Numbered from the stretch's first letter, positions 18,757-39,817 are shown. The stretch: 51,571 nucleotides of DNA from Anaeroplasma bactoclasticum (GCF_003550015.1 NZ_QXEV01000012.1:1-51571), one strand, 5' to 3'. Notes: generated by a model from the sequence alone, not told the origin. Numbers and translations: made by a program.

Positions 18757-19767
18757 ATGCCAGAGAAAGACGAGCCTGTCGTTGTATCAAGCTATAAGAG
18801 GGATGAGGGACCAGAGCCTATATTTGTTGCGGAAGGAAAAGAAGCTGAGGATGAGCCAGTCATCCTAAAGTTTGACGTAGCTAAAAAGGAAGAAAAGAAG
18901 GGCTTCCATGTTAAGATGCCCAATCTTACACTAACCTCTGTTGCCTTAAGAAATATGGCAGAAGAAATTTCCAAATATTTAAAGAATTTTGGAATGGAAA
19001 TTAAAGAGGATGAATTAAAAGTATTCATCTCTAGCCTAACATCAAGGTTAATCGTAATCGATGATGCCGATTGCTTAGAATATACATCTAAAATAAGTGA
19101 ATATTTTTGTGATAATACATTCGTTTGTAAGGGCGCATATGATGCAGCCTTATTAAAATGCTGCTATAGCGCATGTAGAAATCCTTTAGTTGCACACTTT
19201 TTACTTTGGCCAATAAAGGATAAAGTACCAATGCCTGAATTTTTAATTCGTTATATAGAGCTTCCAGCATCTGGTATTGAAATGGTAATGAATGAATATA
19301 TCAATGATGCTTATGTTGGTAAGGCAAAGCTTCCAGATAACATCTTCGTTATTGCCTATGGAAATAGTAACTATTTAGATAAGAGACTAAATAGACAATA
19401 TACAATTTGGAATCCTAGACTTAAAAGAGTTGAAAAGGAAAATACAGGCTATAAAACAATTTCTATGAATTCATTTAAGAATATGCATAAGGTTATGGAT
19501 CCAATTAATGACCAGTTATGGACAAAAATGAGTGGTATAGAAGAAGTATTAGATTCTATGAGTGTTACTTTAGAAAACAAGGATTGTAATCATTTAGATG
19601 ACTTCTTAGTTACTTTAGTAAATCAAGGAATCAATAATGATAAGGCATTAAAGTATTTATGTGATTATCGCTTATTCCCTATGGTTTCTAAATATTTAGA
19701 CCTAGAGGAATTTAAAAGAAGGTTAACTGAAGCAGGAATATATGCTAAGGGAAGGGAGAACTTATAA
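18757..19767 (+). CDS. Probable catalytically dead AAA+ paralogue (pseudo-ATPase)
   Basis: 336 residues from the ATG at 18757, 6 bases after GAGGAGG; a longer frame from a TTG at 18742 starts before the ribosome-binding site. The acidic N-terminus (1-55) looks disordered and no membrane segment is seen. The region ISKYLKNFGMEIKEDELKVF lines up with the segment just before the Walker A motif of the two downstream ATPases (YSASALGLYYSEQDIRRF). KLPDNIFVIAYGNSN lines up with their KLPDN(M/I)WFIGT(V/A)NND. Where they have GMSGTGKTS this protein has DDADCLEYTS, and where they have ITILDEMN it has HFLLWPIK, so both nucleotide-binding motifs are lost. It may be a structural or regulatory member of a mixed ring. 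The stop overlaps the next ATG by one base. Homology is my reading of short alignments. Confidence 0.6.
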   Translation: MPEKDEPVVVSSYKRDEGPEPIFVAEGKEAEDEPVILKFDVAKKEEKKGFHVKMPNLTLTSVALRNMAEEISKYLKNFGMEIKEDELKVFISSLTSRLIVIDDADCLEYTSKISEYFCDNTFVCKGAYDAALLKCCYSACRNPLVAHFLLWPIKDKVPMPEFLIRYIELPASGIEMVMNEYINDAYVGKAKLPDNIFVIAYGNSNYLDKRLNRQYTIWNPRLKRVEKENTGYKTISMNSFKNMHKVMDPINDQLWTKMSGIEEVLDSMSVTLENKDCNHLDDFLVTLVNQGINNDKALKYLCDYRLFPMVSKYLDLEEFKRRLTEAGIYAKGRENL

Positions 19768-20978
19768 TGAATTTATTTCAAAACCCAGTATTTTTAACAA
19801 TTTTATTAGGCATTCTATTTGTTGGAATTTTAGCACTTGGAATCCTATTCTTTTTATATACAAAAAATCCAAAGGATGATTCTAAAAAAGAAGTTGGAGC
19901 ATCTAGATTTACCTCTTTAATTGATATTGATAAAGCAAATGAAAATAAAGAGCCTGAAGTATATAGCCCAATTACCTTTAAAGAGCTATGTGATAATTTT
20001 AGAAATTATTCCGCAAGTGCTTTAGGTCTATATTATTCTGAGCAAGATATCAGAAGATTCATTACAGGTCTTGCAACAAGCCATATTATGATTTTACAGG
20101 GTATGTCTGGTACAGGAAAAACTTCCTTAGCCTACGCATTTGGTAGATTTACAGAAAATGATTCATCCATTATTCCTGTTCAGCCAATGTGGAAGGAAAG
20201 AACAGACTTAATTGGTTATTACAATGAATTCACAAAGAAGTTTAATGAAACTCCATTCCTAGAATCCTTGTATAAAGCAAATTATTCTAAAGATATGTTT
20301 ATTACAATCCTAGATGAGATGAATATTGCAAGAGTTGAGTATTATTTTGCAGAATTCTTATCTTTACTTGAAATTCCAGATCCTGAATCTAGATATATTG
20401 ATGTAGTATCTGCCGCATTACCTGGAGATCCAATTAAGCTTAAGGAGGGTCAAATTAAATTACCAGATAATATGTGGTTTATCGGTACAGTTAATAACGA
20501 TGACTCTACTTTCTCTATTTCAGATAAGGTATATGACCGTGCGATGATTATGAATTTGGATAAGCGTGCTACTCCATTTGATGCACAAAACCCAGGTTCT
20601 ATGAAAATCTCTGCAGAGGATTTCTTAAATCTTGCAAAGGAAACTGGAAATAATTACCAAGTAAGAGAAGAATTAACAGACCTATTAACAAAGCTTGATA
20701 TTTATTTACAAGAGAATTTCTATATTTCCTTTGGTAACCGTATTAATCGCCAGATTAAGCAATACCTAGCTTGCTATATTGCTTGCGGTGGAGAGGAAAT
20801 GGAAGCACTCGATGATATCTTAGCTAAAAAGGTATTTAGAAAGCTAGGTAATGGTAGTGCTGCCTTAGTTAAAAAGGAAATTGATAGCTTATATGATAAG
20901 CTTGATGAATTATTTGGTTCAGGCTCTATGCCTGAGTGCCGTCATGCAATTGCCCGTATTTCTCAGACTGCAAGATAA
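19767..20978 (+). CDS. Membrane-anchored McrB-type AAA+ ATPase, copy 1
   Basis: 403 residues. A single N-terminal membrane span (about 8-32) and a ~35-residue linker precede an AAA_5/McrB-clade ATPase domain. Walker A is GMSGTGKTS (112-120), then PVQPMWKERTDLIGYYNEF, Walker B ITILDEMNIARVEYYFAEF (179-197), then the sensor region FIGTVNNDDSTF (238-249) and a candidate arginine finger in DKVYDRAM (Arg258). The DEMN.ARVEYYFAEFLS block is typical of McrB-like proteins rather than of MoxR. The ATPase faces the cytoplasm if the N-terminus is outside, which a short uncharged N-terminus allows. Overlaps the pseudo-ATPase gene by one base. McrB proteins are normally soluble, so the membrane anchor is unusual. 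Confidence 0.85.
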   Translation: MNLFQNPVFLTILLGILFVGILALGILFFLYTKNPKDDSKKEVGASRFTSLIDIDKANENKEPEVYSPITFKELCDNFRNYSASALGLYYSEQDIRRFITGLATSHIMILQGMSGTGKTSLAYAFGRFTENDSSIIPVQPMWKERTDLIGYYNEFTKKFNETPFLESLYKANYSKDMFITILDEMNIARVEYYFAEFLSLLEIPDPESRYIDVVSAALPGDPIKLKEGQIKLPDNMWFIGTVNNDDSTFSISDKVYDRAMIMNLDKRATPFDAQNPGSMKISAEDFLNLAKETGNNYQVREELTDLLTKLDIYLQENFYISFGNRINRQIKQYLACYIACGGEEMEALDDILAKKVFRKLGNGSAALVKKEIDSLYDKLDELFGSGSMPECRHAIARISQTAR

Positions 20979-21001
20979 ATTTTAGATTTTGAGGTGAAAC
21001 T

Positions 21002-22666
21002 ATGGACCAAATGAATAAGGTCTATTGGAAAATTTCAGATTATATCCAAAGCATAAAGGATATTAAGGAATTAGATCCTATTATTAAGGATTTAACAAGA
21101 TATAGTGATAAAGATATTTTCCAAAGAATTAAAAACGAAATAATAATTGAAGATGATTGGATTACCTTTACAGAATCTAAGATTAAATATGTAGAGGCTG
21201 CAGTATTTGAAAACCGTCAGTTTATTCGTGAAGAAGGAGAGGTATTACCAATTGAAAGAATCCGTAAGGTTTCTCCTTCCTCTGTTTCTCATTTAGCGAA
21301 GCATTCCGATTATATTGAAAAATATACAGAAGGAGAAGATATCACTCCATCTAAGCTTTATACCGTAAACAAGGATACAGATTATGGTGTATATGAAAAT
21401 AAATTCATTTATTTATTGCTTTTAACATTATCTGATTTTATCTTCCGTATCAGAGAAGATGTAATGTCTAGCGTTAAAGGTGAAAATGGAGTATTCCAAA
21501 TTAGAAGAAGAAATGAAATCTTAGGTGATGATATTGAGCTATCCTTAAGACTTGAATTTAGAAATGCTACTTTAGAAGAAAAGCTTACAGAGCATGAAGC
21601 TAAAAAGCTTACTCGTATGGAAGCCTTAAGAGAAAGAGTTGGAGCTCTACTTGCGACTCCTTTGATGCAAATTGTTTCAAAAGAGCCTGTAATTTCATCA
21701 AATATTACAAAAACAAATGTTTTAACAATGAATGAGAATTTCTCGAATTCATTAGAGCTATATGAGTATTTATTAAACTATGATAAAAAATGCTATCACG
21801 TGAATAAGGTTACTGAGGTAGTTCCTATTTCATCTAGTCTAGCATTCCCAATGCTTGGCCTTGAGCTTTTAGTTTCCTTACTAAAAGAATCAAAAACAGA
21901 TGATTATGAAATCAAGAAAAATGAAATCATCGCAGATGAAAAGAAAAAGGCAATTGATGAGCTTTCAAAAAGAATTGATAAGATTAAAGAAAAATATCAA
22001 GCAGATCCTTCAAGTTATGTTGCAATACTTGAGGATAAGATTAATTTACTTGAATCTGAAAATATGCAGATGCAGGTATTAAGAGATAATCTAGATAAGA
22101 TTGTCTTAGTAAAGGAAGGCTTAGATAAGGATAATAAAGCCTTAAGAATGGATATTGATAATCTTTTAAGTAAATTAAGAGATTTAGAGGCTAGATTAAA
22201 GGATGTTAATGCTAGTGAAGATTTAATCCGTACTCAGTATGAAGATAAGCTCAAAGAAAAGAATAAAGAAATTGAAGAATTAAAAGAAGCATTAGAAAAG
22301 AAAACAAATGAGCTTCAGGAAGCCTTAATTCAAAAACAAAATGCTATTTCTAAAACAGATAAGTTAAAAGAAGATTTATCCAATGAAAGAAAAAAATATG
22401 ATGAGCTTAAGAGAACATCTGATTTGGAAATTGAATCTAAGGATAAAGAAATTAATGAGCTTTTAGATTTCAAGAGATTAAATGAAGGAAGATTTAAAGG
22501 CATCCAGGCAATGGCTGGAGAAATAAATTCAGAAAATGCAGAAACCTCTAAGGAAGCATTTGATGAGCTTGAGAATGAATATAATGCATTCACAAGCTAT
22601 TATGAAGAGGTTTGGAAAAAAACAAAGAAAGAGATTATAAAAGAGATTAAGAGAAAGAAGGGATAA
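21002..22666 (+). CDS. DUF2357/McrC-like protein with a coiled-coil C-terminus
   Basis: 554 residues, cytosolic. The first ~290 contain DTDYGVYENKFIYLLLLTL (YENKF at 131-135), which matches the YENRF signature of DUF2357/McrC-type partners of McrB ATPases. LELYEYLLNYDKKCYHV (from about residue 250) sits where such proteins lead into their PD-(D/E)XK nuclease. From about residue 300 to 500 the sequence is instead heptad-rich coiled coil (KKAIDELSKRIDKIKEKYQ, EEKNKEIEELKEAL-like), ending in the basic KKEIIKEIKRKKG. No nuclease motif is visible. It lies between the two McrB-like ATPases, with gaps of 23 and 1 bases. It is probably the partner or assembly factor of the ATPase ring. The DUF2357 call rests on a short motif plus context. 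Confidence 0.6.
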   Translation: MDQMNKVYWKISDYIQSIKDIKELDPIIKDLTRYSDKDIFQRIKNEIIIEDDWITFTESKIKYVEAAVFENRQFIREEGEVLPIERIRKVSPSSVSHLAKHSDYIEKYTEGEDITPSKLYTVNKDTDYGVYENKFIYLLLLTLSDFIFRIREDVMSSVKGENGVFQIRRRNEILGDDIELSLRLEFRNATLEEKLTEHEAKKLTRMEALRERVGALLATPLMQIVSKEPVISSNITKTNVLTMNENFSNSLELYEYLLNYDKKCYHVNKVTEVVPISSSLAFPMLGLELLVSLLKESKTDDYEIKKNEIIADEKKKAIDELSKRIDKIKEKYQADPSSYVAILEDKINLLESENMQMQVLRDNLDKIVLVKEGLDKDNKALRMDIDNLLSKLRDLEARLKDVNASEDLIRTQYEDKLKEKNKEIEELKEALEKKTNELQEALIQKQNAISKTDKLKEDLSNERKKYDELKRTSDLEIESKDKEINELLDFKRLNEGRFKGIQAMAGEINSENAETSKEAFDELENEYNAFTSYYEEVWKKTKKEIIKEIKRKKG

Positions 22667-22667: not shown

Positions 22668-23963
22668 ATGAAATCCTATAAAACATGGATATTTGTAACC
22701 TTTGGCTTAGTCATAGTAGTTGTAGGACTCTTAATTGGAGGAATCCTAAGCTTCTATTCGGCTGGTTATACTGTTGAAGGTTCATCAGGCATAGTTGTTA
22801 TGCTACTTTTATCCCTTGTTTTAGTTGGTCTTTTAACAGCAATTGTACTAGTAAGCTTACTAATGAAGGACCAAAAGAAAAGAGGTAAGGATGCCGCTCA
22901 TGCATTCCCTGCCTTAGAAAGAATTGATGATGAAATGAAAAAGAATCCTCCACTTCCTTATGATAAGGTAAGCTTAGAGGAATTCTGTAATGAGTTTAGA
23001 AATTTCTCTGCAGGAGAATTAGGTCTATATTATTCTATTGATGATATAAGAAGATTTATTGCAGGCTTAGCTGTATCTCATATTCTAATATTACAGGGTA
23101 TGTCTGGTACAGGTAAGACATCTTTGGCTTACGCATTTGGTAAATTTATTGAAAGAGATTCAACAATTATACCAATTCAGCCAATGTGGAAGGAAAGAAC
23201 AGATTTACTTGGATATTATAATGAATTCTCTAAAAGATTTAATGAGACTCAATTTTTAGAGACCATTTATCAAGCAAACTGGAGAAATGATATGTTTGTT
23301 ACAATTTTAGATGAGATGAATATCGCAAGAGTTGAGTATTATTTTGCGGAATTCTTATCCTTAATGGAAATCCCATCGAATTCTAGATATTTAGAGATTA
23401 TTTCATCTACATCAATTCATGACCCAGTTAAAATGAAGAATGGTCAAATTAAATTACCAGATAATATTTGGTTTATCGGTACAGCAAATAATGATGATTC
23501 AACATTTGCAATATCCGATAAGGTATATGACCGTTCTATGGTATTAAATTTAGACCATAAGGCAGAAGCATTTACTGTAGATAATTGGCGTCATATTCGT
23601 ATGAATGCTTATGACTTCCAAAAGATGGCAAGACAGGCTATGGCAGAATACCGCTTGAGATATAAATATAAGAATAAGCTTGAAAGATTAGATTTATATA
23701 TGCAGGATACATTTAGATTATCCTTCGGTAACCGTATTAATCGTCAGATTGAGGAATATACATCTGTATATGTTGCTTGCGGCGGAGATGAGCTTGAAGC
23801 ATTAGATGATATTTTATCTAAAAAGGTATTTAGAAAGCTTGTTGGTGGAAACTCCCTATATTTAAAGAGAAAATCTGGTGAGCTTTTAGATAAGCTTGAT
23901 GAATTATTTGGACAAAATAAAATGGTTTTGTGTAAGGAAATCATTTTAAGACTAGTGAGGTAA
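22668..23963 (+). CDS. Membrane-anchored McrB-type AAA+ ATPase, copy 2
   Basis: 431 residues. Two membrane spans (about 8-29 and 42-66) with a short outer loop, so the ATPase domain is cytosolic. Walker A is GMSGTGKTS (144-152), then PIQPMWKERTDLLGYYNEF, Walker B VTILDEMNIARVEYYFAEF (from 211), sensor region FIGTANNDDSTF, and a basic DKVYDRSM finger candidate. It is clearly a paralogue of the protein at 19767: the ATPase cores are nearly collinear (both end with LSFGNRINRQI.EY and KKVFRKL..), while the N-terminal membrane parts are unrelated. Two active copies plus the inactive first gene suggest a hetero-oligomer. Starts one base after the previous stop. Confidence 0.85.
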   Translation: MKSYKTWIFVTFGLVIVVVGLLIGGILSFYSAGYTVEGSSGIVVMLLLSLVLVGLLTAIVLVSLLMKDQKKRGKDAAHAFPALERIDDEMKKNPPLPYDKVSLEEFCNEFRNFSAGELGLYYSIDDIRRFIAGLAVSHILILQGMSGTGKTSLAYAFGKFIERDSTIIPIQPMWKERTDLLGYYNEFSKRFNETQFLETIYQANWRNDMFVTILDEMNIARVEYYFAEFLSLMEIPSNSRYLEIISSTSIHDPVKMKNGQIKLPDNIWFIGTANNDDSTFAISDKVYDRSMVLNLDHKAEAFTVDNWRHIRMNAYDFQKMARQAMAEYRLRYKYKNKLERLDLYMQDTFRLSFGNRINRQIEEYTSVYVACGGDELEALDDILSKKVFRKLVGGNSLYLKRKSGELLDKLDELFGQNKMVLCKEIILRLVR

Positions 23964-26486: not shown

Positions 26487-28874
26487 ATGCGTTATGAAGA
26501 ATTTTATAATGAACAAGTAATAAAATATAAGAAAAGAAGAGCATTCTTAACAAAGAAATTACCCTTCATATTGATTGGATTAGTAATCCTCCTTTCTGCT
26601 ATTTTAGTACTATTCTTTACATCAGGAACACCATATGAATATGGTATTTCGGATTTAAAATTTGGTGATACTATTCAAAATACACCAAAATCCTTCTTAG
26701 CATCAGCAAGATATGAATTCTTAGTTGATGGAAAATATCAGGAGGAACAACCAACAAAGCCTGGTAGTTATAGCTATAGAATTGCATCTACCAATATTTT
26801 TGGAGTTACAAAGTATTCTTCCGATTATGAATTTGTAATTGAAAAGGGTAAGGCAACAATCTCTATTGAAGATACTACAGTTGATTATGGCTTTGAACCT
26901 AAAAAGATTACTTCAAATCTTCCATATGATAAAAAAATATCCTCTTATACTATTGAATATGAGGATAAGCATCAATTAAATACCAAAGCTTGGGTATCCG
27001 ATGTTACAATTATAGATTCTTTAGGAGTAGATATTACAGATTATTATGATTTAGAATTCCCTAAAACTGAAATAACATTTGTAAAAGTTCCTTTAGTTAT
27101 TACACTTAAGGATAAAGAAAAGGTATATGATGGTACACCTTTAGAATATGAAGGTGAAGAGGATTATACAATTAGAGGCTTAATCAATGGAGATGAAGAA
27201 GTACATCTAGAAGTAGAAGGAAGCCAAACCTTAGTTGGAGAAAGTGAATATAAGGTTACAAATGTTTCAATTAAGGATAAGGATGGCAATGCTTATGAAA
27301 CCTATGATTATGTATTTGAAAGTGGATTACTAACTGTTACAGAAAAGACAATTGAATTTGAAACAAAGGATTGTGCTACTACTTATAATGGAGAGGTACA
27401 GGAATTTGATGAATATCAATTATCTGAAGATATTCCAGATAGTGTTACAGTAGATCCAATTGAAGTGAATTTGGCTGGAAAATATAGCTATGAGCTTACT
27501 CCTAAATTTATAAATAGTGATGGAGTAGATGTATCTTACTGTTATATTGTTGAATATACATATGGCTTTATTGCTGTTAATAAGGCAAAAGCGAAGGTAA
27601 CGCTAGATGATATGGAAGTTGAATATTCTGGTAATACCATATTTGATGATACATACACATTAGATAGTGGAAATCTATTTGATAGTGAACTTAAGATAAA
27701 AGTTGATTCAAGTATAAGAGAAGTAGGTGTTGGCAAAATAACCTATAAGTCTTATACATTAACAAAGGATGGTATAGATGTATCTGATTCCTTTGATTTA
27801 GAAATTGAAAGTGGAAATATTGAAATTGTTAAAAAGGATTTAACAATTAAGCCAAAAAGTACAATAAAGGAATATGATGGACTTACCTTTGAAACAAATA
27901 AATATGAACAAGAAGGCTTAGTTTCATCAGATACTCTAGCATTTACATCGACTTGTAGTGCTACAGAAATAGGAATATCTGAGATAGTAATTGATTCATC
28001 AACAATTTCTATTATGCATAATGGAGAAGATGTATCTTACTGTTACAATATTACAGAAGATTTTGGTTTATTAACAATTACAAAAAGAAAGCTTAAAATA
28101 AAAGTATTTGGTACGGATATTACCTATGGAGATACGCCTGTATTCTCCTATGCGTGTGGAAAGAATGATGGCTTACTTGAAAATGATACAGTCTATATCG
28201 GTTCATATAATTATACAATGAATATTGGAATCAATGAGATTGATATCCAAGACTTTTCCATATTAGATGGTAGTAATCTTCATAATGATTTATATGATGT
28301 TACAATAGTTAAAGGAACATTTACTATATTTAAAAAGTCACTTAAGGTGTCCTTATCTTCAAAAAGTAAAATATATGATGGTAATGAGCTTGAAGTAAAT
28401 GATAGTGATTACTACATTTCTTCTGGTGAATTATTATCAACAGATTCCATTACCTTTATTCCATCTAACATTACTGCTTTAGATGTTGGAACAAGAATTG
28501 TTCCTGTTACAGTAGATAATGTATTTATAAAAAATGAAAATGATGAAGAAGTAACATCTTATTATAATATTGAATTTTCCTCTGGTAGTCTTACAATTAC
28601 TCCAAGGGTTGTAAATATTACTACAGGATCTATTACAAAGAGTTATGATTTTGGTGTCTTAACTTGTGATGAGGCAAGCGTTTCTGGTCTAGTTTCAGGA
28701 CAAGTAATTGAGATTGAAATCACTGGTGAATTATTCTATGTGGGTAGTGCATCTAATACAATTGGTAAAATTAGAGTTTATAGCTCTAGCTTTGAAAATG
28801 CAGTAGATTTAACAGAAAACTATACATTTAATATTCACGAAGGAACATTAACTTATACAGAAAGGAGTGCATAA
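26487..28874 (+). CDS. Membrane-anchored extracellular protein of MBG/YDG-type repeats, 2
   Basis: 795 residues. A ~24-residue basic cytosolic head (EQVIKYKKRRAFLTKKL) and a membrane span at about 25-47 (PFILIGLVILLSAILVLFF), then roughly eight repeats. Openers are KVYDGTPLEYE, TTYNGEVQEF, VEYSGNTIF, KEYDGLTFE, ITYGDTPVF, KIYDGNELEV and KSYDFGVL, and closers are of the ..GLLT(I/V)T.K type. Same architecture as the preceding protein but with different repeat sequences, so an old duplication. No sorting signal at the C-terminus (ends LTYTERSA). Strong ribosome-binding site (GAAAGGAGG). Extracellular orientation follows from the positive-inside rule. Ligand unknown. Confidence 0.8.
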   Translation: MRYEEFYNEQVIKYKKRRAFLTKKLPFILIGLVILLSAILVLFFTSGTPYEYGISDLKFGDTIQNTPKSFLASARYEFLVDGKYQEEQPTKPGSYSYRIASTNIFGVTKYSSDYEFVIEKGKATISIEDTTVDYGFEPKKITSNLPYDKKISSYTIEYEDKHQLNTKAWVSDVTIIDSLGVDITDYYDLEFPKTEITFVKVPLVITLKDKEKVYDGTPLEYEGEEDYTIRGLINGDEEVHLEVEGSQTLVGESEYKVTNVSIKDKDGNAYETYDYVFESGLLTVTEKTIEFETKDCATTYNGEVQEFDEYQLSEDIPDSVTVDPIEVNLAGKYSYELTPKFINSDGVDVSYCYIVEYTYGFIAVNKAKAKVTLDDMEVEYSGNTIFDDTYTLDSGNLFDSELKIKVDSSIREVGVGKITYKSYTLTKDGIDVSDSFDLEIESGNIEIVKKDLTIKPKSTIKEYDGLTFETNKYEQEGLVSSDTLAFTSTCSATEIGISEIVIDSSTISIMHNGEDVSYCYNITEDFGLLTITKRKLKIKVFGTDITYGDTPVFSYACGKNDGLLENDTVYIGSYNYTMNIGINEIDIQDFSILDGSNLHNDLYDVTIVKGTFTIFKKSLKVSLSSKSKIYDGNELEVNDSDYYISSGELLSTDSITFIPSNITALDVGTRIVPVTVDNVFIKNENDEEVTSYYNIEFSSGSLTITPRVVNITTGSITKSYDFGVLTCDEASVSGLVSGQVIEIEITGELFYVGSASNTIGKIRVYSSSFENAVDLTENYTFNIHEGTLTYTERSA

Positions 28875-28876: not shown

Positions 28877-31800
28877 ATGAAAAAGAGAATTATCATTATA
28901 TTTGGAATTTTAATTAGTTCTTTTCTAGCAATTGCTTTAGTATTAGGTAATATCATGAAGCCTAATTTTAAATCTTATCAAACACAGTTGAATGCAGTAA
29001 AGCTATATGATTCAGAAAATGAAACAAGTAATTTTGATTCTAGTGTTAAAAATTACGAAATAAAAGATAGTGATGATGTTTTAGCCTTCTTTAATATTGA
29101 TGATGATACTTCGGGAATGACTTTTACAGTCACAGCAGAAGAAGACATTGATATGCAAGGAAAGCCATTAAGCAAAATGGCTAAATTCTCTGGTACTTTA
29201 GATGGTAATTCTAAAAAGCTTTTGAATTTATCTTTTGTTGAAAGAAATGATGATTCTTATGCATTCATTGAAGAGCTTGATACTGATGCAGTTATTAAGA
29301 ATTTAACTATTGATGGTATCACTACTCCAACTCATCATAATAGTGTTGGTTATGGTGATAATGGTTATGTACATTTTATTCATAAGCTAGATAGTGGCGC
29401 TATGCTTTATAATAATACATTTTATCGAATCTATTTAGGATGCGGTTATAATGAGGGTAAAGTATATGCATATGGATATGATGATGCAGCTTTAGTTGGA
29501 GAAAATAATGGTTTAATTAGTAACTGTTATTTGGCTGAAGAAAAAGGCGCAGCAGAGAATCCTTCTCTTAGTGAAGTAAAAAATTATTTTTATGGATATA
29601 AACATGCATCTGTATTTGCATCCTATGGTAAGAATGGTTCATATATTGAAAGATGTGATGGCTATGGTGCTATCGTATATGGATATAAATATGTAGGTGG
29701 AATTGTTGCAGAACAAGATGGTAGCTATATTACTTCATGTTTAGCAGATTCCTTCTTTGTTGGTACAATTCCAAGTGAACTATTAATTAGTGGATTAACA
29801 GCTTTTATTCAAACCGAGTATCAGAAAGATACTTTAGAAAACTATGTCGGTGGATTAGTAGGAAAATCATTAAACTCCACTGTTGTTAATAATGTTTTCT
29901 TTAACCAAAATGGTTATTTATTATGTGGAGTAGCTGACGAAGACAAAGTTGCTGTTGTTTCATCTTCTTGTGGTACTACAAGAATTGGTGGTATGGTAGG
30001 TTACTCAAGCGGTGGTTCTATTGATTATAATTTGTTTGAAGGTTCTATTCAGCAAACATATGTTGAAGGAGTTTCAAAAGCAAATTCTATTAAAAATATC
30101 GTTAGAGGTGATGGTGCATCTTCAGAAACTAAGCATTGTAATGTAGTAGTTCGACCACTTGATGAAGCAGATGATAAATATTTTATTGATGTATCCGATG
30201 GAAGCACTCCTATAAGAACCTATACTGCCCATGAAGCACCATTATATCTTGCAAGTCCATCTTTAAATGGTGATGGTAGTACAACTATGGATTTTTATGA
30301 TATGCGCAATAGTGTTAATTTTGCTCATTGTCATGGATATACTCTTTCAACAATTTATGATGAAATGAATCCTAGTGAATATAAGGCTTATAAGGTTTAT
30401 TATGATAATGATGAACATGTAACTTATAGCTTTGAAGCATATTCTAATCAGGCATATAGGATTGATACTACTAATTTAAAACATGAGACTTATTATGATG
30501 ATTTTATAAATCAAGGTGATGATTTATTTAAAGCTGTAGAAAAAAGTAGTAATGGATATAGTGAAGCTAATATCTATAAGAGAATAACTATAGAAGATGA
30601 ACAAATAATATTTGAATTTACTGCCAATAGTAAGCTTTGGGATAAATACTATTTAGCATATTATGATGCAGCTGTTAAAAACAATGTTTATTACAATTCA
30701 ACATTTGACCCATATGAAATTTTAGAAGGCGCTTATTATTTCATTTGTGATAGCCAAGATCAATCTAAATTATCACGAATTGCTGGTGCTAATGAAATAT
30801 ATAGAAGTATTAACAATGTATGTGAAACATACGATAAAGATGGTAATAAAACAGATGATAAGGCATCTCATGTTTTATATGAAGGAAATACTGTAAGAAT
30901 TTCTAATCGTATTTGGGTTTCTGGGAAAAGACCAGTAAATTACAGTATTAATAGTAATTTAAATTTAACAAAGGAAACTGGTTACACCTTATCCTATTCT
31001 TATACTCGTTATGATGAGGGTGAGTCTCAATTTATACAGACAGCTATAAGTGATTTTCAGTCTATTGATACTCTATCTACAGAAATAGTAATAGGAGATA
31101 TGAATTTCACTGTATATTATATTTTTAACCAAAGTAATTTATCCTTCACTGGAACAATTCAAATGGATACTACAAATATAACTGATCCAGAGATTGTATT
31201 TGTAAATCAAAATGGACAAACGATTACTTCGGATTATTTAAGCTGTACAATACAATCCGATTTATCCTATACTATGTCTATCACTCCAGATTCTAGTTTG
31301 AATTTCTCTAATACTTTTGTAAGATTTACTTACTTAAATAATGATGTAGCAGAATATAAGAATCTTGCATCCTTAGATAGCTTTATTAAGTTTTTAGGTA
31401 ATAATGATAGCTTACATACTGTAATCTTAAATGTAAACTTTACGGCAGATGATAGTTTAGAAGCTGAGTTAGAAGAAGATTTTAAAACTATTATTTATTT
31501 CTATCCAATGCTAGGCTCTGCAGACCCTACAGATTATTATTACAGTGTAGTAGAAGAAAATGGTGGAGCACTAGTTGAAAGAATTTATAAATATGGATAT
31601 CCATTTAATCCATTAGCTGATTACACTTTAGCAGAAAATCAAACTTTCCGATTTGATTATAATACTTTGGGTGTAAGAGGATATTTATATGATAGAAGCA
31701 ATAGTACATTCTATTTAAATGTTAATAATGTATTACATAATGCTTTCTCATCATATAATTGGACTGTAAATATCATAATTAGCAAAACAAATAGACAATA

Positions 31801-34800
31801 TAAAATATTTGAATATTGGAATTGTGATTTAGTTGATTCCATGGGCGGTAAATATTTTGAAAAGCACGATTATGATTTCTTTGATTATCTTTTCTACTGT
31901 GAAGAAGCAGGATTATATGAGAATAATTATTGCTACACGGAAGCAGGAACAGATAGAATTCCTAAAGTTTTTGATAAGAAGAATTTATATTTATACAATG
32001 ATTTAGAAACAACAAAGAGATTCATGATTATTGAAATCAAGTATTATACAACATATGATCCTAATTATCCTGAAAATTCTATAGAATATACAGGAAATTT
32101 AGAGGATTTAGAACAAGATATTTATTGTGTATATACTCTAGCAATGTCAAAATCGGAATCTATGAATTATGAATATACATATTATGATGAAAGCTTTGGC
32201 TTCAAGTATGGTGAAGATTATGCTGCAAATACTTTTGAATTTGGATTTTGTTCAAGCTCTGAGGCTTATGGTGATGTAGTAGATGGAATTTTAATTAATC
32301 AAACAGATAGTGGTAATTATAAACACTTGTCCGTATATATTCCAGATGGTTTAGAACCATATTTATGGATTATACATTACGAAGATGAAACACACGAATC
32401 CGTTTCAAATTACTATTTTGCTCAAACTCTTGAATATATTGCGACACACGAGGATACCATTTTAGAGTTTAAAACATTCTATGTGACTACGGATGAAGAA
32501 TCAGCTGCCTATGATTATGTATTTGAATATGGATGTGGAGCTACATCTACAGGAGTTCTTGAAAAGAATAATGCATTTTTATCTTACACTTTAGCGAATA
32601 AACCATATGCTATTCGTTTTAATGTTGAAAGAGGATATGAAATTGCAAATACTACAGCTGAATATACCTTAACCAATAGTGTATATGAGGGTGTTTTAGA
32701 AGATGATATTCATCTAACTGTAGAAAAGAGTCTTGTTTACTACCGCATTAATTATTATTGGACTAGTGGATATCAAATTGAAGTAGAGTTTTCTAATGAG
32801 GAAGGTCCATTCTATGTTAATAATATAAGTAGTGACACGATTGCTGAGCATTGGTCTTCCTATTCTAACGAAGAATTAAGAGGATTCTATGCTTTATATA
32901 CAATAAATGACACATCAATTAAATACATATTAGAAGAAGGAACAATTCGACATTGTAAATATAATGATATTGAATTTGAGGGATTCTTGATTTATAAGAA
33001 TGTTTATACACAGTATAATATAGAGTCAAATGTTGGTGTTGATTATAGACAAACTCCAACGCCATCCGATTGTAGAGATTATTATGTTGTATTTACTATC
33101 GCAGCTCCAGAATCTGATGATAATAATTTAACATATTATCATTATAAGCAATATACTATGCCTAATAGCATCACATATGGTGAAAATACATATAATTATT
33201 CATCTGATGGATTCACATTTGATTTCTCTAAGGAAAAAATGGAATTCAATAAACCAACGGAATATGAAAATGTAAGAGTAATCTATGGTGTAGAAGAAAA
33301 TAGTATAGATTCAACTATAACATGTACGTATTTTTATGATGGTAATATGTATTTATGGGCTTTACTTGATGATTCCAAATTAGATGGCGAATCACCAAAG
33401 GTTCCTATTTTAGAAGATATTGATTCAGATTTCACAATTTATAGAATATGGTCATCGCAAAATAGTGTTACGGATGATATAGAGGCAACCATTAAGCTTA
33501 GAAATAATACCGAAGAAACCAAAACGATTGTATTTGATGCATATGCATATTATATTTCAGGATATACAATTTCTTTTGATCTATCTCATTATGATGAACT
33601 TGGTAAAAGTGCTCACGTTCATGAAATTTCTAATTATGCAGCAGGTGGTAGTACATTCTCTCTTGAGGTTACTCAAAATACATCTATAAATGTTACTTTG
33701 TCATATAAAGAATATACTATTAATTATTCATGGGATGTAGAAGGTAAATTCATTTTTGATGAGAATATAGAAGCTACAGAAATTAATAGTAGCTGGATTT
33801 ATGCAAATTATCAATTTGCTCAAGATAATGGATTTAGATATACTGTTGAAGATACAGAAGCATATTTAAATTATTATTTAAATGTAAATAAAATGTTTAT
33901 CTTTGAAAAAGATGATGTAAGACAAGATGTTCTTATTGCAGGTATACATTTCTATCAAGATAGTCTTCATACAACTGAATTTGATTCTAAGCCGCTTCAT
34001 CCTTTTGTAGGAAACGTCTATGTCATTATAGATTTAGCGTTTGCTTCTGATTCGCCTCTTACTTATTATTCAAAAGAAATTGGAACTATCAAATTAAATG
34101 GAGTAGAAGCAAATTATTCCTTTAAGTATTCAAGCTTAGAATACTATTTTGAAGAAACGAATGTAGGTTCAGCAGCAGTAAAGGATGGCACCTTATATTA
34201 TTTTGAACCAGATGAGGGATACTTATGGTTATTTGTAGATGATGAGGCAATTTGTCCTGTTAGCATAGATGATGAAGTATTAAATTATGATTATTATTCT
34301 ATAACTATAGGAGATAAAGATGGCGATGGCTTTGGCTATAACTATGATGTAAGTATAAATGGAATGATGACTACTGAGGGTGATTCTGGAGATACAAGAA
34401 TATATTATTTATCTAAAGGAGAATCCTTTATAGCACGCTTCCAATACGATGGTGAAGAAGGATATGAATATTCTCAAAAGGATAATTCTTTTGGAATTGA
34501 AAAGAATAAGATTGTTGTAGAGAATATTGATCAAGAATATACCTTCATGGTTGATTTTGGATATAAAAAGAGCTCCTATCGTGTATATTTCTATATTGAT
34601 AGAAGTGATATTACAAATGATCCTGATTTCAATTATGACGATGTATATTTAGATGATCCTACCTTTAATGCAGAAACATATACAACTTGTGAGTTTGAAT
34701 CAAGTTTCCCTGCATATCCAGAAATTTCTAAAGAAGGATATCGTTTGGCTGGCTATGTAATTTATTATGGCGAGAATATGATTGATATGTATGTTTCTCC

Positions 34801-37800
34801 AGAAAGTACAATTCCTTCTCATCATGTCATCGTATATGGGGATTGGGTTGAAGCAGGCAGAGCATCTTTTGAGATTACTTATTATGAATCAAATCGTGAA
34901 AAATTAGACTTTGAAGAAACAGAAATGTCTGCATCATCTGTCATGTTATATTATGTAGATAATGTAACAACAGAAAAAACATTAATGGAGCAGTTATCCT
35001 TTGATGCAAATAATATTGATACAATGCAATATAAGGTATCTGTATCTAAGGTAATGGATGGTGGCTATTTCTATAGATATCAATTCTATTTCTTCCCAGA
35101 TGATTCCGACAATGGTAATTTAGAGGTTTATTTAAAGCTTCCAAGGACAAGTGAATATATTTATTTTACTACATTAAATGAAGTTGGAAGTGGCGGACAA
35201 TTTGAATTACAGTATATTTCTGTTGCTACTCTAAATGCAGATCCAAGCGACGAGGAAACTCATATTGAGGTTACAGGTGAAGGATGGTATTTATTTGGTG
35301 ATGTTGTTACATTAACATTAGATATTGAAGAAGGGTATTATGCATATTTTACAGATGCAGAATTAGCTAGATTAGTAAATATTTATAATTCCAATACGAT
35401 TCGTATTGCCTCTATGCAAGAGATTTCTAATGAGCTTGGAAGCTTAGAAATTGCACTTTCTGTTGCAAGAAGACAATATCATATTTATTACTATTTAGAT
35501 GGTAATTTAGTTCATACAGATGATTATTACTGTGGCGATAGTGTTACTATTTGGGAGCCATCCAATGAGCAATTACAAGGCTATAGAAAATCGGAATGGA
35601 ATGATACATTAGATACTATGCCAGCAGCAAATGTAACTTTATATGCAAGTATTATTTATGGTATTACAAAGGAATATACAATTAACTTCAGTGGTACTGT
35701 TATAGAAGGAATGTTCTTTATTGCCGACAATAAAGAAGAAATTACAGCAAGAACAATTATCACAGAAGCTGTTGTACTAGATAATAATAGAATAGAAGTC
35801 ACATATAAAGAAAATCATGGATTCTTGTGGATGGTTGATCCAATCACTAAGACAGTTAGATATTTAAATGTTGACTTAGATTCTATTACAGAGATTAATT
35901 TAGTTAAATATACAATTCCAGATGGAATAGATCATTTATCTGTTTCCAATTTAGGCTATCATTTAACAAATTCTATCGTTGGTGTTGAGGTTACTAAAGA
36001 ACCAGGCTATACCTATGTTACAAGTGAAACTAAGGTTGGTAATATCTTATTAATTTCTTCTAAAGAGAATGATTATGAAATTGATTTACAAGAAGAAAAA
36101 TGTAAATATAATGTATATTATTTCATTAAGGATACTTTAGTTTACCAAGATGAATATTATTATGGCGATGACATTATCCTTTGGGAATATGATCCAACTC
36201 TTTATGATGGAGATTTCAATTTTGTATCTTGGAGTGCGATTCCATTTGAGGTAATGCCAGCAAGTGATGTTTTAGTTTATGGACAAGAAGGCGCAAGCTA
36301 TTCTTTAATTACAATGCCAAATGTTTCTATGCTTCATGAAAATGAAACATTAGGTAAGGCAGTATTTACTGGCGGTTTAGTCAAGATTGGAAATGAAATA
36401 ATTCCAGGTGAATTTAGATTTGAAGATTCAACACATGTTGTTAAAAAGGTAGAATCCGCAACAGAATCATTTGTTGTATTATTCCAACCAAATGATATAT
36501 CACTAGCTCCTTATAAGTTTGAAATGACTATTTTGGTATGTAATCCAAAATATGATGGAGATTTAGATGATATTTATTTAATTTCTAGAACAAATAATTC
36601 TATATCCTTACATATTAATGAAAAATATGAATTCTATTTTGAAAATGGTTCATACCAAGTAGGTAGAGATTTTGAAGTATCTAATCTAAAGGAAAATACA
36701 ACATATAAAATTACATATCGCTATAAGGCAGATGATGATTATTGTGCATCCGATGCATATGTATTTGAGGTTAGAACTCTAAGCTTTGATGAAATGCTAT
36801 ATATTAATTCACAAGCCTTAGGCTTAAGTGTAATTGATGCTGCTGTTAGCTATTTTGATAATCCAACAGTTCAAAGATATCTATCTTTATACCAAGAAAA
36901 ATTATCTAAAGATTATGCAGTTGAAATGGATGGAGTAGAAGCTCAAGAATTCGTTGAATTCTTAACTGAGGTTATTGGTTATTTAACTGAAATTGAGGAT
37001 GCAAGAATTCCTGTATCTCACCTAGATGCTAATCGTATTATGGATTATGCAAACAAGTGTATTGATGAGCTTTCTGATTTAGCATTCAATGGTAATGCAT
37101 CAACAAAGAATTTAGCTAGATATAAGAATTATGTCATCAATGTTTTAAATGTAAGTGATTCTATTATTTCTACATATAATATTTCCTTAAGTGATCTTAT
37201 AAATCAGAAGCAATCCATTAAGCTTACTGCATTAACTAATACAAATTCATTAGATATCCAAAATCAAACAAGCTTTGTAATTAATAAGGTTGATGAATTA
37301 TTAGAATACAATTATTCCAATTATTCTCATGTAGATTTAAATGAATTTAAGGATGAATATATTGGAAATACTGTAATTCTAATGAAGGATGTGAATAAGC
37401 AAGTACATCATACGGATAGTCAAATGGTAACACAGAATATCAGTAAGTGTGTAACTCTATTACAATCACAAACTTATGAGGATTATACATTTAACCGTGA
37501 GGAATATGATGCTATCTTCTTCAAGGCAGCAGAAGCTGCAGTAGTAGCTCATATGCAGGTTATTGTATTAAATGATTTAGATAGAATATATATTATTAAG
37601 ATTGAAAACTTAGATTTTACTAAGAGAATGTCCTTAAAGAATGTATATTTAGATTTAGTAGATCAATATTCTGATTTTGATACTTTCTACTTAGAATATA
37701 GAAAAATGATTGAAGCTGGCAATGATATGACTTATGATGATTGTATTTCTACATTCTCTAGCAATTTAGAGGCTAAGCTTGTCATACCAGTAAGTTCAAA

Positions 37801-37930
37801 CCTAACAAGTACAGAGGTAATTGTTGTATTTGTATTTGCATCTGCAGTGTTTGCGCTTGTATGCGTAATTGTTGCAAGACATATTATCATAAAGAGGAGG
37901 GCACATTATGCGACAGGATCTAGAGAATAA
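28877..37930 (+). CDS. Giant (3017-residue) bitopic surface protein with GLUG-like, InlB-like and helical parts
   Basis: An N-terminal membrane span (residues 5-27, preceded by MKKR) and a C-terminal span (about 2981-2999) followed by the basic tail RHIIIKRRAHYATGSRE enclose ~2950 extracellular residues. Near the start a beta-helix-like region has GLUG-type motifs: YVGGIVAEQDGS (~272), NYVGGLVGKS (~325) and RIGGMVGYSS (~369). The long middle is Tyr/Asp/Asn-rich beta sequence. It includes InlB/Listeria-Bacteroides-like units (YRVYFYID ~1901, YHIYYYLDGN ~2201, YNVYYFIKD ~2411, each followed by D.Y..GD..... and MPA..V..Y). A fibronectin-III-like stretch lies at about 2564-2635 and a helical segment at about 2637-2970. 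The protein would be clamped to the membrane at both ends. No enzyme motif recognised. The next gene starts inside its last codons. Confidence 0.75.
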   Translation: MKKRIIIIFGILISSFLAIALVLGNIMKPNFKSYQTQLNAVKLYDSENETSNFDSSVKNYEIKDSDDVLAFFNIDDDTSGMTFTVTAEEDIDMQGKPLSKMAKFSGTLDGNSKKLLNLSFVERNDDSYAFIEELDTDAVIKNLTIDGITTPTHHNSVGYGDNGYVHFIHKLDSGAMLYNNTFYRIYLGCGYNEGKVYAYGYDDAALVGENNGLISNCYLAEEKGAAENPSLSEVKNYFYGYKHASVFASYGKNGSYIERCDGYGAIVYGYKYVGGIVAEQDGSYITSCLADSFFVGTIPSELLISGLTAFIQTEYQKDTLENYVGGLVGKSLNSTVVNNVFFNQNGYLLCGVADEDKVAVVSSSCGTTRIGGMVGYSSGGSIDYNLFEGSIQQTYVEGVSKANSIKNIVRGDGASSETKHCNVVVRPLDEADDKYFIDVSDGSTPIRTYTAHEAPLYLASPSLNGDGSTTMDFYDMRNSVNFAHCHGYTLSTIYDEMNPSEYKAYKVYYDNDEHVTYSFEAYSNQAYRIDTTNLKHETYYDDFINQGDDLFKAVEKSSNGYSEANIYKRITIEDEQIIFEFTANSKLWDKYYLAYYDAAVKNNVYYNSTFDPYEILEGAYYFICDSQDQSKLSRIAGANEIYRSINNVCETYDKDGNKTDDKASHVLYEGNTVRISNRIWVSGKRPVNYSINSNLNLTKETGYTLSYSYTRYDEGESQFIQTAISDFQSIDTLSTEIVIGDMNFTVYYIFNQSNLSFTGTIQMDTTNITDPEIVFVNQNGQTITSDYLSCTIQSDLSYTMSITPDSSLNFSNTFVRFTYLNNDVAEYKNLASLDSFIKFLGNNDSLHTVILNVNFTADDSLEAELEEDFKTIIYFYPMLGSADPTDYYYSVVEENGGALVERIYKYGYPFNPLADYTLAENQTFRFDYNTLGVRGYLYDRSNSTFYLNVNNVLHNAFSSYNWTVNIIISKTNRQYKIFEYWNCDLVDSMGGKYFEKHDYDFFDYLFYCEEAGLYENNYCYTEAGTDRIPKVFDKKNLYLYNDLETTKRFMIIEIKYYTTYDPNYPENSIEYTGNLEDLEQDIYCVYTLAMSKSESMNYEYTYYDESFGFKYGEDYAANTFEFGFCSSSEAYGDVVDGILINQTDSGNYKHLSVYIPDGLEPYLWIIHYEDETHESVSNYYFAQTLEYIATHEDTILEFKTFYVTTDEESAAYDYVFEYGCGATSTGVLEKNNAFLSYTLANKPYAIRFNVERGYEIANTTAEYTLTNSVYEGVLEDDIHLTVEKSLVYYRINYYWTSGYQIEVEFSNEEGPFYVNNISSDTIAEHWSSYSNEELRGFYALYTINDTSIKYILEEGTIRHCKYNDIEFEGFLIYKNVYTQYNIESNVGVDYRQTPTPSDCRDYYVVFTIAAPESDDNNLTYYHYKQYTMPNSITYGENTYNYSSDGFTFDFSKEKMEFNKPTEYENVRVIYGVEENSIDSTITCTYFYDGNMYLWALLDDSKLDGESPKVPILEDIDSDFTIYRIWSSQNSVTDDIEATIKLRNNTEETKTIVFDAYAYYISGYTISFDLSHYDELGKSAHVHEISNYAAGGSTFSLEVTQNTSINVTLSYKEYTINYSWDVEGKFIFDENIEATEINSSWIYANYQFAQDNGFRYTVEDTEAYLNYYLNVNKMFIFEKDDVRQDVLIAGIHFYQDSLHTTEFDSKPLHPFVGNVYVIIDLAFASDSPLTYYSKEIGTIKLNGVEANYSFKYSSLEYYFEETNVGSAAVKDGTLYYFEPDEGYLWLFVDDEAICPVSIDDEVLNYDYYSITIGDKDGDGFGYNYDVSINGMMTTEGDSGDTRIYYLSKGESFIARFQYDGEEGYEYSQKDNSFGIEKNKIVVENIDQEYTFMVDFGYKKSSYRVYFYIDRSDITNDPDFNYDDVYLDDPTFNAETYTTCEFESSFPAYPEISKEGYRLAGYVIYYGENMIDMYVSPESTIPSHHVIVYGDWVEAGRASFEITYYESNREKLDFEETEMSASSVMLYYVDNVTTEKTLMEQLSFDANNIDTMQYKVSVSKVMDGGYFYRYQFYFFPDDSDNGNLEVYLKLPRTSEYIYFTTLNEVGSGGQFELQYISVATLNADPSDEETHIEVTGEGWYLFGDVVTLTLDIEEGYYAYFTDAELARLVNIYNSNTIRIASMQEISNELGSLEIALSVARRQYHIYYYLDGNLVHTDDYYCGDSVTIWEPSNEQLQGYRKSEWNDTLDTMPAANVTLYASIIYGITKEYTINFSGTVIEGMFFIADNKEEITARTIITEAVVLDNNRIEVTYKENHGFLWMVDPITKTVRYLNVDLDSITEINLVKYTIPDGIDHLSVSNLGYHLTNSIVGVEVTKEPGYTYVTSETKVGNILLISSKENDYEIDLQEEKCKYNVYYFIKDTLVYQDEYYYGDDIILWEYDPTLYDGDFNFVSWSAIPFEVMPASDVLVYGQEGASYSLITMPNVSMLHENETLGKAVFTGGLVKIGNEIIPGEFRFEDSTHVVKKVESATESFVVLFQPNDISLAPYKFEMTILVCNPKYDGDLDDIYLISRTNNSISLHINEKYEFYFENGSYQVGRDFEVSNLKENTTYKITYRYKADDDYCASDAYVFEVRTLSFDEMLYINSQALGLSVIDAAVSYFDNPTVQRYLSLYQEKLSKDYAVEMDGVEAQEFVEFLTEVIGYLTEIEDARIPVSHLDANRIMDYANKCIDELSDLAFNGNASTKNLARYKNYVINVLNVSDSIISTYNISLSDLINQKQSIKLTALTNTNSLDIQNQTSFVINKVDELLEYNYSNYSHVDLNEFKDEYIGNTVILMKDVNKQVHHTDSQMVTQNISKCVTLLQSQTYEDYTFNREEYDAIFFKAAEAAVVAHMQVIVLNDLDRIYIIKIENLDFTKRMSLKNVYLDLVDQYSDFDTFYLEYRKMIEAGNDMTYDDCISTFSSNLEAKLVIPVSSNLTSTEVIVVFVFASAVFALVCVIVARHIIIKRRAHYATGSRE

Positions 37931-38777
37931 TAGGGACCCTGAAGAGTTTAAAAGCTCGAAGGAATTTAATAAAGATCCCAAAGAGGAAAGATTCGCTAAG
38001 GAATACATAAGTGCAGCGGAATCTGATGATCTAAATAAGGAATATCCAGTAGAAACTAAGGTTCAAAGAATTAAACGTGATGCGGCATCTGGTGGTAAGC
38101 TTGCCACTGGTGCTGCAGTCGTTGGTGTTGCATCCTTAATTGTTATTGGTACATCTGGCTTAGTTAATATTAATATGGATGGAAAAATTGAAAAGCTTGA
38201 ATTCCAAGATAATCATATTGTTTATGAGGTAAATGTTTCTGATGTAGAAAAAGGAAATACAATGTATTTTGAAATCTATGAAGGAACAGCATCGAATGCA
38301 CTTACAACAAAAGAAATCATTACAGATGTAGAAGAAACTATAAATGGTCCATATAGTGGTATACTAGATACCTTAGATTTAAATATTGAAGAAAAGCTTA
38401 AAACAAAAGATTCTGTATCCTTTACATTTAGACTTTGTGGTAACACAGGGTTAGTTAATAGAACCTATGATTCTATGATTTTAGAGGTTAATCAATATGA
38501 ATCTGTATTTAGAAGTGTATCCTATATGAGTGATTTTGAAAATTCGGGATGCTTCCTATTTGAAATGGATTTCCAAGATGACTATGGAATATTTACAGAT
38601 TTTGATGCATTTATTAAAGATTCTGATGGAGTTATAAGTAAATGTAGCTTCACAGATAATTTACATGACCAGCAAAGAATAAGTATTATTCATTTAGCTG
38701 GTGGAGAAGCTTATTTTGAATTATCATTTAATAGTAATGGAACAAAAGAAACTTATTCTTATGTTGTTCAAATTTAG
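37908..38777 (+). CDS. Single-span membrane protein with charged cytosolic head and outer domain
   Basis: 289 residues. Overlaps the end of the giant gene by 23 bases in another frame, with AGAGGAGGG just before its ATG, so translation is probably coupled. Residues 1-62 are highly charged (EEFKSSKEFNKDPKEERF), then comes a Gly/Ala/Val-rich membrane span at about 66-88 (ATGAAVVGVASLIVIGTSGL). The remaining ~200 residues are beta-like and Asp/Asn-rich, without recognisable motifs. The positive RIKRD before the span indicates N-in, C-out. Not recognised as a known family. It is probably a component of the same envelope assembly. Confidence 0.75.
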   Translation: MRQDLENNRDPEEFKSSKEFNKDPKEERFAKEYISAAESDDLNKEYPVETKVQRIKRDAASGGKLATGAAVVGVASLIVIGTSGLVNINMDGKIEKLEFQDNHIVYEVNVSDVEKGNTMYFEIYEGTASNALTTKEIITDVEETINGPYSGILDTLDLNIEEKLKTKDSVSFTFRLCGNTGLVNRTYDSMILEVNQYESVFRSVSYMSDFENSGCFLFEMDFQDDYGIFTDFDAFIKDSDGVISKCSFTDNLHDQQRISIIHLAGGEAYFELSFNSNGTKETYSYVVQI

Positions 38778-38791
38778 GAGGAATATTTAAA

Positions 38792-39817
38792 ATGAAAAAC
38801 AAGAAATTAAAAATAAGCGTTGTAGAAATAGTTTTTTGGGTTATCGGTGCTGCATTACTTGCGGTAATATTCTTCCGTAAGAACATCTTCCCTGACGATT
38901 CTATTTTCTATAACCTATATGAAGACTTTGGTGCTACATTTACAGACCAAGCTACTCAGGTATTAGTTCGTATTATTAAGACAATCGTAATCATATTCGC
39001 ATTTATTGTTCCTTATAGAATTTTAAAATTTATCTTAGATTTACCTAAGAAGAAGAATCAGCGCTTAATGACTACAATTTCCTTACTTCAAAGTATTATT
39101 AAATACGCAAGCTTTATTTGTGTATTATTATTCACATTAGCTGCATGGGGTGTAGATCCTACTACATTACTTGCATCTGCAGGTATTGTAACTTTAATTG
39201 TAGGTTTAGGCTGCCAGTCTCTAATTGCAGATATCATTTCTGGATTATTCATTATTTTTGAAGGTGACTTCCAGGTTGGTGATACAGTTGTAATTGATGA
39301 TTGGAGAGGTGTAGTTCAGGCCATTGGTCTTCGTACAACAAAGATTGTTGATTTAGCTGGTAATGTTAAGATTGTAAATAATTCAAATATTACAGATATC
39401 GTAAATAACTCTAAGCAGCTATCTGTTGCGATTTGTAATATTGATATTGATTATGATGAATCTATTGAAAGAGTAGAATCTGTAATTGAAGCAAACTTAG
39501 ATTATATGAGAAAAAGAATTCCAACTATTGTTGAAGGTCCTTATTATAAGGGAATTGAAGCATTAGGTGAATCTGGAGTTACAATTAAGTTAGTTGCAAA
39601 ATGTAACGAGGATGATAAGTATCAGGTTCAAAGAGATTTAAATCGTGAAATTAAGATTATCTTTGATAAGAATAGAGTTATCTTCCCATTCCCACAGGTT
39701 GTTATTTCTGAGCGTGAAGAAAATAATGCTCAAAATGAATATAAGAATATGGATTCCTTCGTTGATGAGCAAAGAGAATTATCTCAAGGCTTTGAAGAAG
39801 GTGGAGGAGGAAACTAG
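38792..39817 (+). CDS. MscS-family mechanosensitive channel
   Basis: 341 residues. Hydrophobic segments at about 10-28, 63-80 and 103-125 lead to the pore helix region GIVTLIVGLGCQSLIADIIS, then the MscS beta-domain hallmark GLFIIFEGDFQVGDTVVID and GVVQAIGLRTTKI. The C-terminal alpha-beta vestibule ends in VIFPFPQVVI, as in small MscS proteins. The tail is acidic and Gly-rich (FEEGGGGN). Last gene of the operon, 14 bases after the previous one and with its own AGGAGG. Known MscS proteins release osmolytes when the membrane is stretched; here its tight linkage to surface proteins may reflect sensing of envelope tension, which is inference. Confidence 0.93.
   Translation: MKNKKLKISVVEIVFWVIGAALLAVIFFRKNIFPDDSIFYNLYEDFGATFTDQATQVLVRIIKTIVIIFAFIVPYRILKFILDLPKKKNQRLMTTISLLQSIIKYASFICVLLFTLAAWGVDPTTLLASAGIVTLIVGLGCQSLIADIISGLFIIFEGDFQVGDTVVIDDWRGVVQAIGLRTTKIVDLAGNVKIVNNSNITDIVNNSKQLSVAICNIDIDYDESIERVESVIEANLDYMRKRIPTIVEGPYYKGIEALGESGVTIKLVAKCNEDDKYQVQRDLNREIKIIFDKNRVIFPFPQVVISEREENNAQNEYKNMDSFVDEQRELSQGFEEGGGGN

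Follow-up and report, generated by a model that had tools for sequence, protein, structure and literature searches.

McrBC, the DNA restriction enzyme known from E. coli and Thermococcus gammatolerans, couples an AAA+ protein to a DUF2357 activator, and CoCoNuT systems combine McrB and McrC homologues with coiled coils. A further class, CoCoPALM, is introduced in one paragraph of the CoCoNuT paper as an uncharacterised group in which McrB GTPases carry a fused FtsB-like membrane segment and are accompanied by coiled-coil McrC homologues and by signal-peptidase and pilus-type partners (PMC11090510); we found this name only in that paper and its preprint. PcdA of Staphylococcus aureus is a McrB-family protein turned division-plane, cytoskeleton-associated factor (PMC10602043). 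Here we describe nine genes at positions 18757-39817 of a 51,571 bp sequence from Anaeroplasma bactoclasticum (NZ_QXEV01000012.1, assembly GCF_003550015.1; hereafter the window). The window is an entire contig (C12) of a 2.2 Mb genome (G000), whose publicly named relatives, identified through matching contigs, are Anaeroplasma or Acholeplasmatales metagenome-assembled genomes (MAGs). Genes 1-6 encode a dead AAA+ subunit, two McrB-clade motors (AAA1 and AAA2) on either side of a McrC-like DUF2357 protein, and two surface stalk proteins with MBG/YDG repeats. In these six genes the ring and activator of McrBC appear to have been rebuilt, nuclease-free, as a stalk-linked membrane device.

The window operon resembles CoCoPALM in having a membrane segment on a McrB-family nucleoside triphosphatase (NTPase), a coiled-coil McrC homologue and a gene context of surface structures. 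It differs in its two differently anchored motors and dedicated dead AAA+ subunit, and in having MBG/YDG stalks in place of signal peptidase and pilin-like genes; the signal peptidase missing from the nine window genes is present next to this genome's second engine, on contig C20. No FtsB or DivIC domain surfaced in a general Pfam scan of the nine products, in which no aimed comparison was made. Because there is no signal peptidase, and because the sensor-1 motif NNDD fits both NxD and NxxD, we treat the operon as a putative variant akin to CoCoPALM rather than assign it to that class. It shares with McrBC the AAA+ domain and the DUF2357 activator, but membrane anchors, a second motor and a dead subunit set it apart, as does the lack of a DNA-reader domain and of any nuclease (HEPN, PD-(D/E)xK or other) among the nine products in Pfam searches. 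Unlike in CoCoNuT systems, the coiled coil is confined to the McrC side and the partners are surface proteins. PcdA offers a parallel for a McrB-family protein shifted from restriction to cell-envelope or morphology work, but its two EVE domains, its degraded motifs and its lack of a McrC partner all set it apart from the proteins here. The MoxR AAA+/VWA pairs (RavA-ViaA, NorQ-NorD) belong to the same broad AAA+ clade and also have a dedicated partner, and the dead subunit's model is nearest to RavA; however, no VWA domain was matched in the nine products (Pfam), and by sequence the relatives are McrB, not MoxR.

Judged from gene order across genomes, genes 1-6 are a conserved module. A search for relatives, retrieval of their neighbourhoods and a scan of named genomes recovered the recurrent order pseudo-AAA, AAA1, McrC-like, AAA2, MBG stalk, MBG stalk, with the AAA1-McrC-AAA2 core complete in at least 58 operons from gut Bacilli and Clostridia genomes. 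Operon counts are lower bounds throughout, many loci come from MAGs, and open reading frame (ORF) calls are approximate in GC-rich contigs. The carriers include a cultured isolate, Anaerocaecibacter muris CLA-AA-M11, and a closed single-contig genome (G086). In 61 loci the gene immediately after an AAA gene encodes an MBG stalk, and 53 of these have two stalks; stalk genes were also present in all six of a further set of tandem operons from the window's phylum. A close AAA relative, mostly of a single-AAA kind, occurs in 74 of 392 sampled genomes of that phylum; within the genus the module is patchy. A first-pass annotation had read the nine genes as one undescribed unit that joins a membrane-anchored, nuclease-free McrB/DUF2357 engine to surface stalk proteins. 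The engine and its linkage with stalks, which is kept across many genomes, were upheld; the unit itself was confirmed by gene neighbourhoods for genes 1-6, and genes 7-9 appear to be a separate module. The roles that the annotation proposed, namely adhesion, motility, envelope sensing or defence, are putative. As to novelty, we found nothing on the stalk subtype in the literature, but the engine class already bears the name CoCoPALM (PMC11090510). A defence-island setting was considered and rejected, the module's neighbours (101 sampled proteins) being mostly housekeeping-like with a few mads and restriction genes. Several loci (L035-L040, L059, L063 and L078, the last in A. muris) have repeated extra neighbours, namely a 3-transmembrane protein of about 235 aa, a 5-transmembrane protein and BspA-type leucine-rich repeat proteins.

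The assignment of both motors to the McrB clade was borne out by Pfam AAA+ matches and by their family profile, which retrieved only McrB entries from the PDB (6hz4, 6ut6 and 7vsr at E<=0.01); AAA2 also matched the NCBIfam McrB-type model PRK11331 at 3.6e-5, below that model's cut-off. Anchors, motifs and trees were counted on the 52 operons in which both motors are complete (104 cores), and transmembrane (TM) segments were assigned from hydropathy. Walker A, Walker B and sensor-1 are intact in 104/104 AAA1 and AAA2 sequences, and the NNDD loop aligns ungapped to NTAD of McrB, where it may be read as NxD followed by D or as NxxD. No N-terminal DNA-reader domain was found on AAA1 or AAA2 in the 52 operons; their N-termini are TM anchors, a single segment on AAA1 versus a two-TM hairpin on AAA2 in nearly all.

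Gene 1 had been called a pseudo-ATPase, and both alignment and predicted fold agree. Its product can be aligned with the ATPases yet has no P-loop, and the same three motifs are all lost in 51/51 aligned pseudo-subunits of this type, which retain C-terminal landmarks such as GN and CGG..EALD. The AlphaFold model (predicted local distance difference test score, pLDDT, 70; predicted template modelling score, pTM, 0.71), like the others reported here a model of the monomer, aligns with the AAA+ protein RavA over 232 residues (Z 13.1, 3.9 A), and Foldseek matched it to MCM and McrB. A short, soluble version occurs in the window and in a related genome, G010. Most Clostridia pseudo-subunits are about 1100 aa long, and two long ones scanned with Pfam have a GH3_C domain, an Fn3-like region and TM segments ahead of the AAA part. 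The GH3 N-terminal domain is barely recognisable in long pseudo-subunits at L058, L063, L044 and other loci, and a long pseudo-subunit with a degenerate GH3 part is possibly a double pseudo-enzyme.

The 21002 product, gene 3, had been labelled DUF2357/McrC-like, and PF09823 (DUF2357) indeed scores above the Pfam cut-off at window positions 21224-21463 (24.1 bits together with neighbouring pieces in frame). The domain was found in 5 of 14 members of the McrC-like family, in some more clearly than here, and none of the 14 has a Pfam nuclease. In the AlphaFold model the C-terminal part consists of long helices, including a continuous one from residue 336 to 505. NCBIfam gave weak coiled-coil-type matches, and the family profile returned only coiled-coil look-alikes from the PDB.

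Both MBG stalk proteins have a single N-terminal TM segment and no C-terminal anchor. Their repeat assignment, a weak Pfam match in the 26487 product (gene 6), is backed by homology across loci. The cytosolic start of the second stalk takes the form MLYxxYxxKL...WRFR, and a Y..[YF] motif lies within the first 12 residues in 50/53 second stalks versus 2/61 first stalks and 118/1692 ORFs; right after the membrane, second stalks have conserved G..V and CP...YG. The corresponding tail in the window reads MRYEEFYNEQ. This conserved tail is a candidate docking site for the engine and the best available candidate for a contact between the two, which makes it the first concrete handle on a link between inside and outside.

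In about half of the genomes the DNA of the AAA1 and AAA2 motor domains is 98-100% identical within the genome while the anchors differ, and between genomes the motor domains share about 50% protein identity. In a tree of the 104 cores, AAA1 and AAA2 are exclusive sister pairs in 26/52 operons, 24 of them at a distance of 0.017 or less; in the remaining 26, each motor's nearest relatives are its namesakes (AAA1 or AAA2) in other genomes. In lineages with homogenised motors, the anchors still match those at the same position elsewhere (45/51 tests). The simplest reading is an old duplication that would have been followed by repeated gene conversion confined to the motor domain. Recent independent tandem duplications were rejected, because AAA1 and AAA2 remain distinct groups in half of the operons and the anchors match by position, and an assembly artefact is unlikely, as identical twins are seen in single-contig G086 and in the cultured isolate. 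Near-identical motors on distinct anchors suggest that the motors must remain interchangeable, as expected for subunits in one ring.

We consider it an even chance that genes 1-6 encode a membrane-tethered, nuclease-free NTPase machine derived from McrBC that acts on surface stalks. In such a machine the same type of motor domain would be held on two different membrane anchors, and AAA1, AAA2 and the dead subunit would probably assemble into a mixed ring on the cytosolic side of the membrane. The DUF2357 protein would take the role of McrC; by analogy with McrBC its DUF2357 domain may stimulate hydrolysis, and its coiled coil may serve as a lever or connector in the nuclease's place. The ring would act on the MBG/YDG stalks at their cytosolic tail and TM segment, so that NTP hydrolysis could position, extend, assemble or reorient them at the surface. 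In the window, genes 7-9 would be a lineage add-on that places a giant stalk and a tension-gated channel in the same operon. A fuller version, namely a new trans-envelope machine in which a McrBC-derived ring with two interchangeable motors and a dead subunit moves or reorganises the stalks via the docking tail, is a more tentative proposal. Several observations weigh against an engine that acts on stalks. Synteny alone cannot separate acting on the stalks from assembling them or from a shared regulon; the gene 3 model has a pTM of 0.39, and in Foldseek searches of the PDB it found no McrC match, the coiled coil dominating; the window's own stalk tail fits the motif only weakly; and AAA1 and AAA2 have diverged from each other in roughly half of the operons, among them that of the window, where they have drifted to 74% DNA identity. 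Should the machine indeed move or control surface proteins, bacteria would have a new route to performing work beyond the membrane, in a space that lacks ATP. The proposal can be tested in a cultured carrier, A. muris CLA-AA-M11 (L078), and the gene-converted twin motors with their dedicated dead subunit amount to testable rules of AAA+ ring composition.

The explanation that ranks next, though unlikely, is that the AAA+/DUF2357 complex is an assembly or maturation chaperone in the manner of MoxR- or pilus-linked ATPases, which would help to insert, fold or release the stalks and have no later mechanical role. Signal peptidases and pilin-like substrates accompany the sister systems with a single AAA gene, the context that gave rise to the published name 'pilus assembly linked' (PMC11090510). 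The window operon, however, has no signal peptidase among its nine products in Pfam searches, and a conserved cytosolic tail on an N-anchored stalk fits a lasting contact better. To our knowledge, moreover, known MoxR chaperones need neither two permanent anchors nor a dead subunit, which we count against a chaperone here. An anti-phage system, in which the stalks or the dead subunit would sense, the McrB-like engine relay, and a membrane effector (perhaps the MscS channel) kill or stop the cell, comes after the chaperone and is improbable. Its McrB ancestry, its patchy presence within the genus and the handful of restriction and mads genes close to certain copies would suit such a role, as would matches of AAA1 and AAA2 to the PADLOC candidate PDC-M26A (1.8e-50 and 6e-47). 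But PDC-M26A is a candidate model whose match covers the AAA part only, and the DUF2357 protein, the pseudo-subunit, gene 8 and MscS had no PADLOC match at all; the sampled neighbours are mostly housekeeping-like, and MscS lies outside the conserved module.

A scaffold for morphogenesis or the division site, with a history like that of PcdA in Staphylococcus, has a published precedent in a McrB relative turned cytoskeleton-associated (PMC10602043), and a host in which no cell-wall transpeptidase is detectable must gain shape by other means. Yet the module is also common in Clostridia, the catalytic motifs of both motors are intact, unlike those of PcdA, and no division genes adjoin it among the scanned window proteins, so that we place this role behind defence, at long odds. 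An ordinary McrBC or CoCoNuT restriction system, with an overlooked nuclease and stalks as bystanders, has the McrB and DUF2357 domains in common with the operon and was already disfavoured; we give it hardly any credence, given that no nuclease domain was found in the nine products or the 14 McrC-like members, that membrane anchors occupy the place where DNA-reader domains would sit, that one stalk type neighbours the engine in different bacterial classes, and that a CoCoNuT-like locus exists separately in this genome, on contig C5.

Single-AAA engines adjoin other surface systems. The second engine of the window genome (G000:C20; L045, L139) has a single AAA gene, a DUF2357 protein and an S26/S24-type signal peptidase, together with several YAWF/TasA-SipW-like proteins, a label that rests on a reading of YAWF-type signal sequences, and an ORF of more than 3900 aa. 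In relatives, a single-AAA version is accompanied by a cadherin-like giant and by a protein resembling a degenerate GGDEF/EAL protein. G086 has one tandem (M-type) operon and two single-AAA loci that resemble these two kinds, as labelled from size and TM pattern (L151, L152). An economical view is that a common engine may be combined with exchangeable surface modules. The CoCoNuT-like pair on C5 (G000:C5:59143-65023; L140) consists of a 796-aa coiled-coil McrB relative and a 1161-aa DUF2357 protein, with a small protein of 203 aa alongside. The window host itself is probably wall-less, because no penicillin-binding transpeptidase was detectable in its genome, whereas control genomes were positive, and there was a single Mur-ligase-type match; among the carriers, this analysis covered the window host.

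Genes 7-9 appear to be a second module that has been attached to the first, a reading based on G026, which has them without any AAA match in its genome (78% complete), and on G010, which probably has all nine genes together. Neither gene 7 nor gene 8 had a Pfam or NCBIfam match; gene 9 is the MscS channel first proposed, on a strong Pfam match. Among 60 genomes a gene 7 homologue was found only in G010, and gene 8 has relatives in two others of 100 genomes (G010 and G026), each adjoining MscS. In G010 the C-terminus of the giant, the 289-aa protein and MscS share one contig and the core lies on another (C41, C102); G026 has a giant, a single-span protein and MscS. We therefore rejected the nine genes as a single conserved unit: genes 7-9 adjoin the core only in the window and apparently in G010, and are core-free in G026. 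Elsewhere in the genus, giant membrane-anchored proteins repeatedly adjoin MscS with no AAA engine alongside (L134 and L135 in G026, L136 in G016).

Within the window the nine successive ORFs look like a single operon (Table 1). As the first-pass annotation had it, they are tightly spaced on one strand (neighbours overlap by 1-23 bp or lie at most 23 bp apart), with a promoter-like site upstream and tandem terminator-like hairpins after gene 9. The start of gene 1 was placed at the ATG that follows a GAGGAGG ribosome-binding site; the program's ORF list used TTG at 18742. Five terminator-like sites lie near 39.8 kb, versus 1.3 expected in shuffled sequence. The promoter-like site is a consensus match that by itself is no evidence of function, and such sites showed no excess over 18.4-29.5 kb (50 versus 66 in shuffled sequence); since the count is below the shuffled expectation, those inside genes carry no weight either way.

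Table 1. Features of the nine-gene locus in the A. bactoclasticum window.
Feature	Description	Position	Strand	Evidence
Promoter-like site	TTGAAT-16-TATAAT, TG-extended -10	18670..18697	+	consensus match, best-placed in region
Gene 1	pseudo-AAA+ subunit, soluble, 336 aa	18757..19767	+	alignment, predicted fold
Gene 2	AAA1, McrB-clade AAA+ ATPase, single N-terminal TM anchor	19767..20978	+	
Gene 3	McrC-like DUF2357 protein, long C-terminal coiled coil	21002..22666	+	
Gene 4	AAA2, McrB-clade AAA+ ATPase, two N-terminal TM segments	22668..23963	+	
Gene 5	N-anchored MBG-type repeat stalk protein, 832 aa	23967..26465	+	
Gene 6	N-anchored MBG/YDG repeat stalk protein, 795 aa, cytosolic tail (MRYEEFY)	26487..28874	+	
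Gene 7	bitopic surface protein, 3017 aa, N- and C-terminal TM	28877..37930	+	
Gene 8	single-span protein, 289 aa	37908..38777	+	
Gene 9	MscS-type mechanosensitive channel	38792..39817	+	strong Pfam match
Terminator-like hairpins	two, tandem, intrinsic type (39826, 39866)	39826..39888	+	directly after gene 9

Directly past the operon terminators, at window positions 40083-45786, lie genes for a hybrid histidine kinase, a solute-binding protein and a receiver-GGDEF-EAL protein. Upstream of the operon, two adjacent large N-anchored proteins (966 and 1102 aa; 465-3365 and 3634-6942) carry Endonuclease I domains, and a single ORF at 12577-14922, beside NadA, combines an L-aspartate-oxidase-type FAD domain with quinolinate phosphoribosyltransferase in a fusion of the NadB-NadC type.

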